A DNA stretch of 32,462 nt, from the IMG/VR virus record IMGVR_UViG_3300020183_000286, positions 1-32,462 of that record; one strand, 5' to 3'. This stretch comes from a virus. Both the position numbers and the translations under genes were made by a program. Each line of letters opens with the position of its first letter. Position 1 is the stretch's first letter. This document shows, in pieces, positions 20,454 to 28,432 of this stretch. The notes under the pieces are model-generated. The model was not told where the DNA came from. It was given only the letters and a program-made list of their open reading frames with translations, and did not search any database.

Positions 20454-20868
20454 GCACCACCTCCTCGGCTGCCTCTCCTAGCCCGCGCTTCTCGAGCACG
20501 CGAACAAGCGTTTCGAGCATCGACTCGCGCTCCTGGTCAAGTTTTGCCTGCTGGCCGCGAGTCTCGCCCCACCGCAGCGGGAAGCGCCGCTCCAGCCACC
20601 ACGCCATTGCTCGCCAGTCGTCCTTGCCTTTGAGCTGAATCGCAATAATGGCGCGGGACTCACACTCGGCCTCTGCCTCGCGCACACGCCGAGCAAAGTC
20701 TACCCATCGCTCGTCGCCCTCGTCAGCGCGGGCCAGCCACGTCCGCAGCGTGCGGTCTGCCACGCCGACGGCCTGGCACGCCGTCGACCGATGCTGTCCA
20801 GCTTTGAGCAATTGCACAATGCGGTCGGCGCGCTCTGGCGTGAGCTTGGTTGTTCCGTCACGACTCAT
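20386..20868 (-). CDS. Terminase small subunit, 160 aa
   Basis: I chose ATG 20868 (MSRDGTTKLTPERADR), in ATGA overlap with the methyltransferase stop; a longer frame from 20913 overlaps more. The N-terminal helix-turn-helix (residues about 14-47: QHRSTACQAVGVADRTLRTW) would recognise the packaging site. A second helical part contains DDWRAMAWWLERRFPLRWGE, a motif I recognise from many phage small terminases, followed by a coiled coil for oligomerisation. It directly precedes and overlaps the large subunit. Confidence 0.8.
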   Translation of the reverse strand: MSRDGTTKLTPERADRIVQLLKAGQHRSTACQAVGVADRTLRTWLARADEGDERWVDFARRVREAEAECESRAIIAIQLKGKDDWRAMAWWLERRFPLRWGETRGQQAKLDQERESMLETLVRVLEKRGLGEAAEEVVRELAGDSGEADTANQGAGGATH

Positions 20869-22127
20869 AAGGCTACCGCAAGCTCTGCTTTCTTCCCGGT
20901 GAGCGTCTCCCATCGCTTCACGATCACGTCGCAGTAGTGCGGGTCAATTTCCATCCCGTAGCACTTGCGGCCTAGTTGCTCGGCGGCGATTAGTGTCGTG
21001 CCCGAGCCAAGAAACAAGTCGAGAACCTTGCCGCCTTCGCGCGTGTTGTTCTGCATCAAAAACGCGCACAGAGCGACGGGCTTCATCGTTGGGTGCAGGT
21101 CGCTTTTGTTTGGTCGGTCGAAGTTCAGCGTGGTCACGCACGACGACGAGCCGAAAAACTCGTGAGTGCCTTCTTGCTTCCAACCGTAGAACACCGGCTC
21201 GTGCTTGTAGTGGTAGTCGCAACGACCAAGCACATGGTTATTTTTCACCCAAACAAGCGTGTGCTTTAACTGCCATCCGGCACGCTCCATGCTCATCATC
21301 ATCATCAGGTCGCCGCCTTGAGGCGAGAAGATGTAATAGCTCGATTTGTTGGAGCAGACGGCGTGCGCGTTCGACAGCACGCGAAACCAGAACTCGTTCA
21401 TCTCCTCGGGCGTGCGGTGGTCGTTCGCGATTTCTCGTTGAACGCGATTTCCCTGACTTTTTCGACGCACCCCTAAAAACTGGTTCTTGCTTGCGTAGCT
21501 GACACCGTAGGGCGGATCGGTGAGAAGCAAATCCGCCTGCGCGCCATCCATCAACCGCGCCATGTCTTCGTCGCTTTCTGACGTGCCGCACAGCAGACGA
21601 TGCTCGCCGAGGAGCCACAGGTCGCCCGACTTCGTGACCGGCTCGGCGGGTGGCTCGGGCACCTCGTCCTCGCTCACTTCCTTCGGCGCGTTCGCGCCGA
21701 GCTCGTCGGCAAGCTTGTCCAGGTCGTTGCTGTCCCAACCTGCGAGCGCGGCGTCCTCAAGCGAAAAGTCGGAGAGGATGCTTGCCGCCGCTGCGGCATC
21801 CCACTCGGCCTCCTCGTTGAGCTTGTTGTCCGCGAGCGCCAACAAGTGCGCCTCGGCGGGGTCGAGGTCCATGTAGCGCACGGGCACGCGGTCGAGGCCG
21901 AGCGCCTCGGCTGCCTTCAGCCGCGTGTGCCCTGCGATGACTTCGCCGTTCGTACGGGCGACGATGGGCGCGGCGAAGCCGAATCGCCTGATCGACTCCA
22001 TCACGCGGCGCACCGGTTCGCCGTTGTTCTTGCGCGGGTTTGCCGACCAAGCATGCAATTCGGCCCGGTCAACCCATACTGCGGCGGGTTCGCTTTCGCG
22101 AATCGGATCTTTCGGCTTTCTGCTCAC
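20865..22127 (-). CDS. ParB-domain DNA methyltransferase (N6-adenine or N4-cytosine), 420 aa
   Basis: Residues about 30-100 form a ParB/Srx-type nuclease-like domain (GFAAPIVARTNGEVIAGHTR). Residues about 165-410 form a beta-class amino-methyltransferase: catalytic motif IV DPPY (204-207), HPTMKPVAL (345-353) and SAM-binding motif I DLFLGSGTT (370-378). The order IV before I marks the beta class. Start is GTG 22127 (GTGA overlap). There is no adjacent restriction enzyme, so it is an orphan methyltransferase, which in phages usually guards against host restriction or alters packaging or expression. A four-methionine run follows GGDL at 275-278. Confidence 0.85.
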   Translation of the reverse strand: MSRKPKDPIRESEPAAVWVDRAELHAWSANPRKNNGEPVRRVMESIRRFGFAAPIVARTNGEVIAGHTRLKAAEALGLDRVPVRYMDLDPAEAHLLALADNKLNEEAEWDAAAAASILSDFSLEDAALAGWDSNDLDKLADELGANAPKEVSEDEVPEPPAEPVTKSGDLWLLGEHRLLCGTSESDEDMARLMDGAQADLLLTDPPYGVSYASKNQFLGVRRKSQGNRVQREIANDHRTPEEMNEFWFRVLSNAHAVCSNKSSYYIFSPQGGDLMMMMSMERAGWQLKHTLVWVKNNHVLGRCDYHYKHEPVFYGWKQEGTHEFFGSSSCVTTLNFDRPNKSDLHPTMKPVALCAFLMQNNTREGGKVLDLFLGSGTTLIAAEQLGRKCYGMEIDPHYCDVIVKRWETLTGKKAELAVAL

Positions 22128-23408: not shown

Positions 23409-23593
23409 ACCTCGCGCTCCGTGATGGCGACCTCGACCACAGCGTATTCGCTCGCCCGTTCGGAGCTAACCGGATGCCACATGGCTCGGAACGTCTCGAC
23501 CTGGCTGCGCGCCTGCTCAAGGTCGTCATGCACATCGAGTGTCGCGCCTTTCCATCTTACTTCGTAGCGCACAGTAGCGTTAGCTTCTGTCAT
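23405..23593 (-). CDS. Hypothetical protein, 62 aa
   Basis: ATG 23593 is preceded by GAGGTGGACA and overlaps the helicase-loader stop (ATGA). The sequence TEANATVRYEVRWKGATLDV is followed by HDDLEQARSQVETFRAMWHP and SEYAVVEVAITEREV: a small alpha/beta fold resembling other short phage proteins of unknown role. Nothing suggests catalysis. It is likely co-translated with the loader. Confidence 0.6.
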   Translation of the reverse strand: MTEANATVRYEVRWKGATLDVHDDLEQARSQVETFRAMWHPVSSERASEYAVVEVAITEREV

Positions 23594-24300
23594 TGTCCAC
23601 CTCGAAGTAGGTCGACCACCTTCGCCTGGTTTTCCATTCGTCTCGTGATGGCAACTCCGTAACGCTTTCCAAGCTGCGCCAGCGAAAGCCCTGATGTCAC
23701 GACCGTGGCAAGTTCCTGGTCGTAACGATTGCCCAAAATGTCGAGCCCCACAGGCGTGCGTCCTTTGATGGCGTCGTGACCTCCGGCAAAGCCAAACTCA
23801 TCCAGCACCAGCATCGACACTTCGCGAGCGTCGTTCATGAGCTGGAAGTTTCGTTCGTCCTGCGCCGAAAGAAGCTGCTGCTCAGTGACCCACAGGATGC
23901 CTGGTGGATACCTTACGGTTGACCTGCCTTCGATGGTCGCATCCTTCAGCCGCTTTGATGTTTCGTACAGCCTAGCCAGGATAGCTGTTGATTTGCCGCT
24001 GCCGCTCTGAGCGCACACGACCATGCTATGGGCCACGAGCTTTCCGTTCGTGAGCTTCATTGGTGACCATTCGCGAACGGCTCGCAGTACGCGTGGGTCG
24101 CATTTGCTTTCCCACACCTTGTTGCCAAAGCGCGCGAACTTCCAGCTTGGGATGTTCTTTCGCGTCTGCGACCACCATTCGTCAATGAAGCTCGCTCGCC
24201 ATTCGTATTCGCGCTGCTTCGCCTGTTCGTCGTCGATCGTCACCTTGGCCAAGATATTGGCCCACACGTTGATGTCGTCGGTTTTCGTGTCGTCGCTCAT
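23590..24300 (-). CDS. DnaC-like helicase loader (AAA+ ATPase), 236 aa
   Basis: AAA+ core with Walker A AQSGSGKST (97-105), Walker B MLVLDE (163-168, Asp167-Glu168), sensor 1 TS (202-203) and a basic C-terminal end TRRME (219-223). The N-terminal ~80 residues are helical and could bind the helicase. These are features of DnaC/DnaI/IstB-type loaders that put the host replicative helicase on an origin. It follows the replication initiator containing the iteron array, as in lambda O-P or DnaD-DnaC pairs. Start ATG 24300 has GAGGTAACCC upstream. No phage helicase of DnaB type is present, so host DnaB is the likely partner. Confidence 0.8.
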   Translation of the reverse strand: MSDDTKTDDINVWANILAKVTIDDEQAKQREYEWRASFIDEWWSQTRKNIPSWKFARFGNKVWESKCDPRVLRAVREWSPMKLTNGKLVAHSMVVCAQSGSGKSTAILARLYETSKRLKDATIEGRSTVRYPPGILWVTEQQLLSAQDERNFQLMNDAREVSMLVLDEFGFAGGHDAIKGRTPVGLDILGNRYDQELATVVTSGLSLAQLGKRYGVAITRRMENQAKVVDLLRGGQ

Positions 24301-24308
24301 GGGTTACC

Positions 24309-25187
24309 TCAAAACTGGACCTCGCTCGGGTCGACTGGTCGATTGTTGAATTCCTCGATGTCGGCGTAAATCTTCGCCATGCCGGCCTCGTAGGTCGCAT
24401 CATCCCCCTGTACTCGAGGCACCTTCGTCTTTCCGCTGGCCGCATCCTTCAGCTTCCAGCCAAGCACCTGCCTGAGCCGTCGCTCCGTCGCTCCCGACTC
24501 CGCCTCGGCTGCCGCCTGCGCCACCGCCTCGGTCACTCGCTCATCAGTGAGCCCAAGCGCCAGGCTTCCAAGCCCGCCTAGCAGCTCCTCGGCCACGACG
24601 GCGTGCTCAAGGCCCGCAAACTTTCGGTGCGCTGCTAGCTCGAGCGCGATGCGCCGAGCCTTTGGATCGACATCAGCCGCCGCCGCCGCTCCCTCGCGCG
24701 CGCGCGCGTCTCTGCTCTGCTCTGCTCTCTTCTGATCTGATCTACTCTCCTCTCCTCTTATCGTGACATCCCGTGACGGCGTGTGACTCGGCGTGACATC
24801 GCGTGACTTCGCGTGACTTCGCGTGACATCGCGTGACGCCTCGTGACTGCGCTTTTTTTGCCGTGATTCCCGCTGTCTAGCAGCGTCGCTGCTGCGAGAC
24901 GCCTGCTGCTGTATGTGCTCTGGAAGCACGATAGAGCGTTCGCGCTCTACGACGTAACCGGCCTCGACCAGTTCTGTGACACTCGGCGCAATCTCGTCCC
25001 ACTGCGCATGCAACAGCGCCCCGATGCCGCGCATACCGGTCACACCGAGCTCAATGGCTCCAGTCCGGTCAGCCACGCGTTGCAGCAGGAGGTAAACGCC
25101 TCGAGCCTGGACGGACATCGAAACCCAGGTTACCGAGTCGCACAAAAACACCTTGATCCAGCGTTCCTCGCTCCAGTCACGAGGCAT
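24309..25187 (-). CDS. Replication initiator protein containing the iteron array, 292 aa
   Basis: Residues about 8-85 look like a winged-helix DNA-binding domain (RWIKVFLCDSVTWVSMSVQ, with GIGALLHAQWDEIAPSVTEL and EAGYVVERE), as in DnaD-like and lambda O-type initiators. A highly charged linker (about 95-165) includes three exact ten-residue units (114-143) of form SHxxSRDVTx, encoded by the iterons. A helical C-terminal domain (about 180-260) likely binds the loader. It is followed by a DnaC-like loader. Start ATG 25187 overlaps the preceding stop by 11 bases. The role is inferred from domains, linker iterons and neighbour. Confidence 0.75.
   Translation of the reverse strand: MPRDWSEERWIKVFLCDSVTWVSMSVQARGVYLLLQRVADRTGAIELGVTGMRGIGALLHAQWDEIAPSVTELVEAGYVVERERSIVLPEHIQQQASRSSDAARQRESRQKKRSHEASRDVTRSHAKSRDVTPSHTPSRDVTIRGEESRSDQKRAEQSRDARAREGAAAAADVDPKARRIALELAAHRKFAGLEHAVVAEELLGGLGSLALGLTDERVTEAVAQAAAEAESGATERRLRQVLGWKLKDAASGKTKVPRVQGDDATYEAGMAKIYADIEEFNNRPVDPSEVQF
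24711..24760 (-). repeat. Ten tandem NNAGA pentamers (purine-rich strand)
   Basis: On the + strand the tract is TCTGC x3, TCTCT, TCTGA x2, TCTAC, TCTCC x2, TCTTA, exactly 5 bp apart with no gap. On the coding strand this is NNAGA x10, strongly purine-biased. The period is half that of the adjoining decamers. It has strand asymmetry useful for helicase loading or unwinding. Confidence 0.75.
24761..24850 (-). repeat. Nine iterons: GTCAC pentamer core every 10 bp
   Basis: Cores are at 24761, 24771, 24781, 24791, 24801, 24811, 24821, 24831 and 24841 (decamer starts), with GTGAC on the + strand in every unit. Spacing of exactly 10 bp places each core on nearly the same face of the helix. Because 10 is not a multiple of 3, the same core is read in all three frames, giving the protein pattern SH / SR / VT. 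This is the signature of selection on DNA rather than protein. Confidence 0.85.
24932..24949. repeat. Seven-bp perfect hairpin TAGAGCG-TTCG-CGCTCTA
   Basis: A perfect 18-base palindrome with a four-base loop, about 60 bp from the decayed last iteron, still within the initiator gene (coding around RERS). Small palindromes beside iterons occur in other phage origins. Chance cannot be excluded. Confidence 0.5.
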
Positions 25188-25392
25188 CGGCCACCTTGGC
25201 AGCTCGAGCGCGCCAGCCAGTGACGGCCTTGTTTTGCGGAGGCGGATTATCCAGGCCCAGCATCACGGCGGCAGCTTCGATGCGGCGATACGACGCGCCA
25301 AATGTCGTCATGCCGGCGTACACGCGCTCCACCGTGACAAGCGCACAATCGGCATGCGCAGCCAGTAGCTTTTTCTGCTTTATGGTTAGCAT
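25177..25392 (-). CDS. Small HTH DNA-binding protein, 71 aa
   Basis: It begins MLTIKQKKLLAAHADC and contains a helix-turn-helix-like stretch (about 18-46: LVTVERVYAGMTTFGASYRR, then IEAAAVMLGL), as in small Cro-like regulators. No ribosome-binding site precedes ATG 25392, and a promoter -10 ends six bases upstream, so the mRNA may be leaderless. Its start codon lies in an inverted-repeat operator, hinting at autorepression. It is the first gene of the replication block. Confidence 0.7.
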   Translation of the reverse strand: MLTIKQKKLLAAHADCALVTVERVYAGMTTFGASYRRIEAAAVMLGLDNPPPQNKAVTGWRARAAKVADAS

Positions 25393-25413
25393 GTCATCTT
25401 AATACGACATGCT
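25388..25413. promoter_or_regulatory. Inverted-repeat operator AGCATGTC-N10-GACATGCT
   Basis: Perfect 8-bp arms (25388-25395 and 25406-25413) separated by ten bases, centred at 25400.5 over the -10 element of the promoter below. A further ATGTC half at 25431-25435 repeats the core. The left arm includes the start codon of the HTH gene. This is a strong candidate for an operator bound by a dimer, probably the product of this HTH gene. Confidence 0.6.
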
Positions 25414-25427
25414 TTTAGCGACGGCAA
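25399..25427 (-). promoter_or_regulatory. Leftward promoter of the replication operon
   Basis: On the minus strand TTGCCG (-35, 25422-25427), 17 bases, then TATTAA (-10, 25399-25404), then GATGAC and the ATG at 25392. The transcript would start at or within a few bases of ATG, so it would be leaderless. The operator overlaps the -10. Confidence 0.55.
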
Positions 25428-25786
25428 GTTATGTCGGCAAGCGGCAGCCCTATCAGCACGCGCACGCCTGGCTTGCCGCGCTCCTGGGCGTAGATCCATT
25501 CCCAGGACGGATGGCCGTCGTCCACGCCGCGCCAGTCAGCTACGCCGTCACGCACGGCCTTGAGGGCGCCCCGCAGGTTGTCGTCGTCGAGGCAGCGTCC
25601 TGTTCGCACCAAGAGCACGCGCACCAGCTCGGCGTCGCGGTACTCGGTGACGTCAACGCGCTGGCATCGCAGCGCCAGCAGCATGGCCGACCGCTGCGCC
25701 TTGGCACGCTTCGCTCGAGCCGCCCAGTGCTCGCGCCGATTGGCTTCGGACACCGTCCTAATCGGGAGCCACAGCTCAACGGGCAC
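25415..25786 (-). CDS. RusA-like Holliday-junction resolvase, 123 aa
   Basis: The pattern PIRTVSEANRREHWAARAK at the start and LDDDNLRGALKAVRDGVADW (66-85) followed by GVDDG (87-91) matches the RusA family. The acidic residues Asp67-69, Asp80 and Asp89-90 are candidates for metal binding. RusA nucleases resolve recombination junctions or clean branched DNA before packaging. GTG start at 25786 with AGAGG; it overlaps the previous gene by 11 bp. Length is normal for the family. Confidence 0.8.
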   Translation of the reverse strand: MPVELWLPIRTVSEANRREHWAARAKRAKAQRSAMLLALRCQRVDVTEYRDAELVRVLLVRTGRCLDDDNLRGALKAVRDGVADWRGVDDGHPSWEWIYAQERGKPGVRVLIGLPLADITCRR

Positions 25787-26757: not shown

Positions 26758-27014
26758 GCGCCGATGCCTGGTCGCTCATCGCCAGCGACGCGCCGCGCAT
26801 GTGGGACTGGCACGACGCCCAAGGCCGCTGGCTCGGTCGCGAGCTGGCCACCGATGCCACTGCGGCGCTCGATGATGCGACGTCGTATCTCGCCACCGAC
26901 GCCGGACTGGCCGGCACCACTGTCACCATCACCGTGCGATGCCGAGCGACCGACGAGCGCGCACGCACCACTACCATCATCGCCACAGGTCTGTCATGTC
27001 TGCCACTCTACTAA
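26754..27014 (+). CDS. Hypothetical protein, 86 aa
   Basis: ATG 26754 (MSADAWSLIASDAPRMW) overlaps the micro-gene stop. There is a helix with RELATDATAALDDATSYLA, then beta-rich TTVTITVRCRATDE. Its end overlaps the exonuclease start by 19 bp. No family is recognised. Confidence 0.55.
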   Translation: MSADAWSLIASDAPRMWDWHDAQGRWLGRELATDATAALDDATSYLATDAGLAGTTVTITVRCRATDERARTTTIIATGLSCLPLY

Positions 27015-28432
27015 TCGTCGACTTTTCCGCCGTTTTCTGGCGCAACTGGCACGCTAGCGCGTCCGAGGCGCTGACCTATGCTCGGCAGCGCACTGTCGAG
27101 CATGTGCGCGCGATGGCCGCCGACTACACGCACACCATCGTCGCGCTCGACAGCCCAAACTGTTGGAGGCGCGATATTTGGCCGGAATACAAGGCAAACC
27201 GGCCACCAAAGGACGAGGCCGCGCTTGAGCAGATGCGCCAGGCGCAGGCCGACCTTGCCGCGCTGTATCCGATTGCAGCGCATGAGCGTTGGGAAGCCGA
27301 CGACGTAATTGCAGAGTTGGCCGCAAACCTGCCTCACGATTGGACCGCGTGCATCCTGGGCGCCGACAAAGACCTCGTGCAGCTCTTGGGCGAGCGCGTG
27401 ACGATGCACCACCTATCGCGGAGCGAGGTCATCACTGCGGCTATGGCTGAGGACACGATCAAGCTGCCGCTACACAGTTATTCAGATTACCTCGCGTTGT
27501 GCGGCGACAAGTCGGACAACGTGCTCGGCGTCCAGGGCGTGGGCCCCGTGCGCGCGGCCGAGCTGCTTGCCAAGTACGAAAGCATCGACGGCATTTACTA
27601 CGCGCTTGACGAGGACGAGCAGGAGTTCACGCCTAAGCTGCGACAGGCGCTAAAGGACGCGCGAAAGCGCGAAAACTGCTCCATCTGGACCGCACAAAAG
27701 CTCGTGAAGCTGCCCGCTGGATACGCTCCCGCGTGCGTCATTGACCCTGTAACGATCATCAAAACCTGGAACCCACCAACGAAAGACACCGACGCCATGA
27801 ACACCATTGACGATGCAGACTTCGACGAGCCGCAGCCCGCGCCCGCTGCACCGGCGCCCATCCCCGCCATTCCGCCGCCTGCGCCGTCGCAGCCCTCGAG
27901 CTCGGCGCGTGCCATTGTGCCGACCGGCGACTGGCAACGCGCGCTTGAGCCGGCCGACAGCAAGGGCGCATACGGTTTGGCTAAGGTTGTCGTGGCCTCG
28001 CGCATGTTCTCTGGCTACGGCACGCCAGAACAGGCAATGCTCGTCATCATGGCTGGCCGTGAGTTCGGCCTTGGAGCCATGGCCAGCCTGCGCTCGTTCC
28101 ACGTCGTGGAAGGAAAGCCCACGATGAGCGCACAAGCCATGATGGCGCGCTGCCTCGAGCACGGCTCGTGCAAGATGTTTCGCGTCGTGCGGTCAAAGTG
28201 CAGCAACGATCTCGCCGTTGTCGAGGTCCAGCGTCACGGGTGGCCAGAGGCTGAAACGTACACTTGGAGCATCGAGGACGCGAAGCGCGCGGGCCTCGCG
28301 AGTCGACCAAATTGGAGCAAGTACCCACGCGAGATGTTGATCAATCGGTGCATTGCTGAAGCTGCACGGTTTGTGTGGCCCGAGGTCATGGCTGGCGTCT
28401 ATGCGCCCGAAGAATTTGGAGGTGCGTCGTGA
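26996..28432 (+). CDS. 5'-3' exonuclease fused to RecT-like recombination domain, 478 aa
   Basis: Residues 1-260 are a FEN/Pol I-type 5'-3' exonuclease: metal-ligand acids at VDF (Asp9), EADD (100-103), GADKDL (Asp124 and Asp126), GDKSDN (170-175), followed by the helix-hairpin GVQGVGPVRAAELL. A Pro/Ala-rich linker (280-300) joins residues about 320-478: EQAMLVIMAGREFGLGAMAS, SIEDAKRAGLAS, YPREMLINRCIAEA, a pattern of phage RecT-like/recombination-associated proteins. An internal Met at 268 (MNTIDDADFDE) looks like an old start. Start ATG 26996 has CAGGT. Together they could resect and anneal DNA ends. The second domain's family is less certain than the first. Confidence 0.75.
   Translation: MSATLLIVDFSAVFWRNWHASASEALTYARQRTVEHVRAMAADYTHTIVALDSPNCWRRDIWPEYKANRPPKDEAALEQMRQAQADLAALYPIAAHERWEADDVIAELAANLPHDWTACILGADKDLVQLLGERVTMHHLSRSEVITAAMAEDTIKLPLHSYSDYLALCGDKSDNVLGVQGVGPVRAAELLAKYESIDGIYYALDEDEQEFTPKLRQALKDARKRENCSIWTAQKLVKLPAGYAPACVIDPVTIIKTWNPPTKDTDAMNTIDDADFDEPQPAPAAPAPIPAIPPPAPSQPSSSARAIVPTGDWQRALEPADSKGAYGLAKVVVASRMFSGYGTPEQAMLVIMAGREFGLGAMASLRSFHVVEGKPTMSAQAMMARCLEHGSCKMFRVVRSKCSNDLAVVEVQRHGWPEAETYTWSIEDAKRAGLASRPNWSKYPREMLINRCIAEAARFVWPEVMAGVYAPEEFGGAS

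Follow-up and report, generated by a model that had tools for sequence, protein, structure and literature searches.

The linker of the predicted replication initiator encoded in the virus record IMGVR_UViG_3300020183_000286 (IMG/VR) carries nine pentameric cores spaced by exactly 10 bp, followed by a tract of 5-bp repeats. This segment is very likely an intragenic theta-type origin of replication, at which the initiator would bind the GTNAC cores and the pentads would serve in melting and helicase loading. Calculations established the two arrays and the fixed register between them, along with DNA-level conservation of both and the gene neighbourhood. The window analysed here is the whole stretch of 32,462 nucleotides (positions 1 to 32,462 of the record), and its relevant features are listed in Table 1.

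Table 1. Coordinates of the initiator gene, its repeat elements and the adjacent gene in the window.
Feature	Position	Strand	Details
Initiator gene, 292 aa (N-terminal domain, linker with both repeat arrays, C-terminal region)	24309..25187	-	ORF
N-terminal domain, aa 1-112, predicted winged-helix-like DNA-binding	24852..25187	-	AlphaFold2 model
A7 tract (T7 on +)	24853..24859	-	in the spacer slot between the ninth core and the decayed tenth
Decayed tenth core	24863..24867	-	ATCAC in sense (GTGAT on +); same 10-bp phase
Iteron array, nine GTCAC cores (sense)	24763..24847	-	exactly 10 bp apart, all three codon frames
NNAGA pentads, ten in sense, 5-bp period	24711..24760	-	directly 3' of the iterons; putative melting/helicase-loading tract
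C-terminal region of the initiator	24309..24701	-	no relative among the loci compared
DnaC-like helicase loader, next gene	23590..24300	-	phrog_50 (E 3e-8), phrog_3277 (E 3e-8)

The earlier note on this DNA had described nine consecutive GTGAC decamers, a decayed tenth one spacer decamer further on and a core read in three frames as three SHxxSRDVTx repeats, all of which was found again. On the + strand, GTGAC starts at 24763, 24773 and so on up to 24843 (n = 9) in exact 10-bp steps with no gap or slip. The decayed tenth core, GTGAT, follows two steps past the ninth, and the slot between them is filled by T7, a possible intrinsic bend. The ORF translates the array as SHEASRDVTR SHAKSRDVTP SHTPSRDVTI, and three frames are used. 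A second site with four such decamers in a row does not occur in the 32.5-kb window, even with 3 mismatches, and none was generated in 100 dinucleotide shuffles of it. The GC skew showed no clean switch at the iteron array.

The initiator was weakly matched to phrog_9474, 'replication initiation protein' (E 0.008), and a Pfam search with the full-length protein returned 0 families. With phmmer, 15+ initiator ORFs with GTGAC arrays were retrieved from a small database of 118 ORFs (E 1e-31 to 1e-9), and PHROGs annotated representatives of this ORF set as replication initiation proteins or replisome organizers. No match was obtained by tblastn in 50,697 phage records or by searching IMG/VR with the window initiator alone; relatives were only reached via an alignment of the N-terminal domain (A1). 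The C-terminal region had no match among the relatives compared. The N-terminal domain was modelled with a mean pLDDT of 91.6, and the top solved structures were the N-terminal domains of pSK41-type Rep proteins (4pql, 5kbj, 4pt7 and 4pta, one with DNA). These matches were modest, with VIA Z of 8.0-8.3 (approximately common-fold level) and Foldseek E of 0.02-0.06. Phage replication initiators and replisome organizers were among the best viral model matches. A profile search of PDB sequences yielded nothing useful and no RepA_N match.

The iteron array lies in the initiator linker just upstream of the DnaC-like loader gene. Among the relatives, a P-loop ORF was located just downstream of the initiator in only 21 of 48. 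Two further ORFs of the window encode fused proteins: a ParB N-terminal domain with an N6/N4 DNA methylase (20865-22127, - strand; phrog_498, E 8e-132), and a 5'-3' exonuclease part with a RecT-like annealing part, so that two recombination functions are apparently joined in one ORF (26939-28432, + strand).

A first survey covered loci that had been chosen for the GTGAC motif. It was biased by construction and therefore, a second survey without motif selection was run. Runs of four GTGAC cores with a period of 10 or 11 bp were present in many viral contigs, with 106 matches at period 11; the totals at periods 10 and 9 are at least those listed and thus not comparable. As a control, the core was reversed to CACTG, which was found at 10-bp spacing in 22 contigs in all with 18 distinct arrays. 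The arrays of periods 10 and 11 were mostly inside ORFs and often had randomised spacers (period 10: among the matches listed). Among the matches listed, most non-redundant array ORFs shared one N-terminal superfamily, 75 of them in one cluster. In L050, L061 and near-identical enterobacterial loci of the 'primosomal protein I' type, the GTCAC array is located within the folded N-terminal domain (around aa 42) and not in a linker. Short 10-bp GTCAC arrays outside any long ORF were seen in four isolate prophage contigs (L024, L045, L051 and L086).

The spacers bear on the question whether the repeats are functionless products of neutral tandem duplication, i.e. minisatellite slippage of a 10-bp unit. 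Spacers within the window are partly alike (GCGAT and GCGAA are repeated), so duplication helped to build this array. However, cores were kept while spacers were randomised elsewhere: spacer identity was below 0.5 in 31 of 87 period-10 arrays (among the matches listed) and 20 of 99 period-11 arrays, compared to 2 of 99 period-9 arrays (among the matches listed), which were near-identical minisatellites or in-frame repeats, and 0 of 18 CACTG control arrays with their mean spacer identity of 0.92. One core moreover dominates all 1024 pentamers, as described below. Slippage as the sole explanation is already contradicted by these observations and highly improbable.

For the second survey, relatives were collected with the N-terminal-domain-only alignment A1. 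It led to 56 loci, 49 of them non-redundant, and 40 of these were absent from the GTGAC-selected sets (clean set). Chains of at least three GT.AC at 10 or 11 bp were found in 28 of the 40 clean loci, while the runner-up among 256 motifs reached 3. GTCAC also ranked first of all 1024 pentamers for 10-bp chains of three (16 loci), followed by the overlapping TCACG with 3. After shuffling of the codon order in a 50-locus set, 0 loci contained GT.AC chains compared to 38 observed. Within the clean set, the GTCAC spacings peaked at 10, 20/21, 30/31, 40-42, 50-53 and 60-63 bp, with a phase coherence of 0.71 at 10.2-10.4 bp versus 0.09 at 3 bp. The remaining 12 of the 40 clean relatives had no GTNAC chain of three or more. 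Likewise, no chain was detected in the initiators of Rac prophage (ydaU), epsilon15, P12026, VvAW1, PBR31 and Bacillus phage 035JT001; the pattern is therefore common but not universal.

An alternative origin of the pattern would be selection for a linker peptide rich in S, R, H, V and T, with the DNA repeat as its by-product. The regular SHxxSRDVTx of the window phage would fit such a peptide, but neither 10 nor 11 is divisible by 3 and all codon phases are used. When the linker was redrawn synonymously with the phage's own codon usage (20,000 trials), 0-7 GTCAC were obtained (typically 1-2) in contrast to the 9 observed, and the product probability of the nine GTCAC spellings is 4e-10. The synonymous choice was skewed to GTCAC in the linkers of the relatives as well, compared to the rest of the same genes: 53/76 versus 16/56 for xH, 94/197 versus 28/166 for Sx and 90/158 versus 24/61 for VT. 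GTNAC is retained in relatives whose peptides differ, and an inserted domain in L418 and L427 is followed by the GTNAC cluster. Selection on the peptide is thereby already contradicted and retains hardly any probability. Selection at the DNA level, as claimed in the earlier note, is strongly supported by the redraws and by the GTNAC kept in relatives; a linker conserved as protein with loss of the repeats was not what was found, but the opposite, as linker peptides vary and GTNAC at 10 bp persists. Insertions between the N-terminal domain and the linker were observed in L418, L427, L410 and L096, and these domains resemble GIY-YIG/T5orf172 by eye only.

The spelling of the core in relatives differs from the one that the earlier note had proposed. 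Several relatives without GTCAC chains had GTGAC, GTAAC or GTTAC at 10-bp steps (e.g. L436 and L425), and where GTCAC cores of relatives were separated by 20-bp gaps, GTGAC occupied the middle slot in 22 of 38. In the clean set, the middle base N was C in 64 cases, T in 2 and G or A in 0 where TNA is in frame, while it was G in 79 of 207 cases in the other two frames. As judged from these spellings, the core is a palindromic pentamer GTNAC and not a directional GTGAC; the recurrence at 10 bp stands, but the directional reading does not. Its orientation is a coding constraint. Since N is never G or A where TNA is in frame and G is common elsewhere, stop avoidance fixes the middle base at every third slot, and the GTCAC sense orientation at these frame-critical slots follows from the avoidance of TGA and TAA stops. 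Duplication may have spread the GTCAC spelling to the remaining slots in the window.

The second element, the pentad tract, was absent from the earlier note. In the sense strand, it consists of TAAGA, GGAGA (twice), GTAGA, TCAGA (twice), AGAGA and GCAGA (three times) in this order. Its G+C content is approx. 48% (counted) compared to 61% for positions 24001-25500; the tract is thus less G+C-rich, but not AT-rich. In the 60 nt past the last phased core, identity within the window initiator family peaked only at lags 5, 10 and 15 (0.43, 0.38 and 0.38 versus approx. 0.22-0.33 at other lags; clean set of 40 loci). The pentad-tract identity of the relatives was 0.475, compared to 0.356 (sd 0.009) in a null of synonymous resampling. 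A 5-bp tract upstream of the array was looked for in the relatives and was absent.

The two elements are phase-locked in the relatives, as AG and TAG keep one register mod 5 counted from the last core. AG fell into this register in 89 of 179 cases, with 20-27 in each other register (clean set: 55 of 117), and TAG in 42 of 49. Where the frame would turn TAG into a stop codon, GAG or GTG was commonest. We abandoned the idea that a pentad represents the footprint of DnaT, since each DnaT protomer binds 2 nt (PMC4132743).

Origin iterons inside an initiator gene are an already known kind of system. In lambda, the iterons within the O gene lie between the DNA-binding and the helicase-recruiting parts of the protein; they are longer, with approx. 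18-20 bp, and are followed by an AT-rich region. PMC6022878 places the ori of lambda within the O gene. The parallel to lambda O drawn in the earlier note holds for the position of the iterons in the initiator linker, which is present in the window, but lactococcal phage origins and pSK41 Rep are nearer in plan, and the window protein gave no Pfam match to the O family (Phage_rep_O).

The replisome organizers of the phages TP901-1 and Tuc2009 bind direct repeats in their own genes, and these repeats are the ori (PMC8965321). The rep gene of Tuc2009 (rep/orf16) carries the annotation 'contains origin of replication', and the organizer genes of r1t and Tuc2009 are documented or proposed to hold the origin. 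As in the window, tandem short repeats of about one helical turn are located within the initiator gene, run through all three codon phases and are followed at once by a tract with 5-bp period (lag-5 identity of 0.71 for Tuc2009 and 0.63 for r1t). Four cores at 11 bp are found mid-gene in Tuc2009 rep (CAACC, extended CAACC(A)) and r1t pro11 (GGAAC, extended GGAAC(C)), whereas the window has nine at 10 bp and its family uses GTNAC. The profile match between the N-terminal domains of the window family and of Tuc2009/r1t was weak (probability 9.6), and the common plan may therefore be convergent. TP901-1 rep, whose repeats are essential, contained neither a 10/11-bp chain nor clear pentads. Together with the relatives, these documented phage origins support a spacing of one site per turn of the helix as well as an origin within the initiator linker, both of which the earlier note had suggested.

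The pSK41-type RepA_N origins are similar in that boxes in the middle of rep form the ori; the N-terminal domain of their protein is a winged HTH, which gave the best, albeit modest, solved match to the model of the window domain. The pSK41 Rep binds four boxes located centrally in rep, where a dispensable protein linker is encoded (PMC5703833). pSK41 is a plasmid with four boxes and the window a phage with nine cores, and the window protein had no sequence match to RepA_N in Pfam or in the profile search of PDB sequences.

In Firmicutes prophages, initiators of the Phage_rep_org_N type (PF09681) have a site at the same gene position as the window array. Among 80 of these loci from bacterial genomes (69 non-redundant), GT.AC was the top motif, with chains of four or more in 28 of 69. 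They show spacings of 5/6 and 11 bp followed by a 6-bp purine tract, in contrast to 10 bp and a 5-bp tract in the window. This 6-bp tract could be protein-driven because 6 is a multiple of three. PF09681 was weakly matched by 7 of 49 members of the window family (best E 1.4e-4; hhalign E 7e-6), and the window protein itself was below the Pfam cut-off. On these profile scores, the two groups appear only remotely related. A recurrent block GTAACGTTACAGTAACG...GTAACGCAACAGAT followed by the 6-bp purine tract AGATATAGATAAAGA was observed in the Firmicutes loci (L466-L545). The linkers of the clostridial L476 and L509 contained other repeated cores, GACAGTCG-like, at approx. 11/22 bp, which suggests initiator-specific divergence of the core.

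These comparisons also bear on the identity of the binding protein. An array conserved at the DNA level might instead be bound by another factor, as an operator through which the replication operon regulates itself, a centromere-like partition site or a site for a host factor. GTNAC is palindromic like many operators and the window also encodes the ParB-N/methyltransferase fusion; however, the array is located mid-gene and not at a promoter, and it tracks the initiator family and not the host. Moreover, the spacing is family-specific (10 bp with a 5-bp tract versus 5/6/11 bp with a 6-bp tract) and a similar layout has been documented or proposed to be an origin in Tuc2009 and r1t. Another binder is thus considered improbable.

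For the origin, we infer that the protein bound to the array is the initiator, that replication begins at this segment and that the pentads take part in it. The predicted winged-helix-like N-terminal domain of the initiator would bind the GTNAC pentamers. Nine cores spaced by 10 bp would place nine protomers on one face of the helix in a continuous nucleoprotein array, or possibly dimers at each site as GTNAC is palindromic. The pentad tract beside it would serve in strand opening and helicase entry, or would receive single-strand-binding parts of the complex, and DnaB would be delivered by the DnaC-like loader that the adjacent gene encodes.

No description of GTNAC arrays or of the 5-bp tract in phage initiators was found in the openly readable literature searched, and the grammar of GTNAC at strict 10 bp with a 5-bp tract locked in phase to it, which is common among phages, is new in this literature. 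There is an even chance that it reflects a two-part origin code in a large proportion of the phages whose replisome organizers are of the winged-helix type. Helically spaced GTNAC would be combined with a short tandem tract in fixed register (5-nt pentads, or 6-nt units in Firmicutes) for sequence-specific strand opening and helicase entry; in its role, this tract would resemble the bacterial DnaA-trio, which is built from another unit. The two parts would be written around the codons of the initiator, with stops forcing the middle base.

Since the relatives show many phages with the same pattern, origins could be found from sequence; if the reading is true, those of very many uncultured phages would be readable directly from the genome. 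The specificity code between initiator and origin could then be tested from family to family. In the phase-locked 5-bp tract there would be a second origin element, and its part in melting, in a filament on single-stranded DNA or in helicase entry would be testable in a small system. One stretch of DNA would then stand under two codes, in which stop avoidance dictates the central base of a putative protein-binding site.
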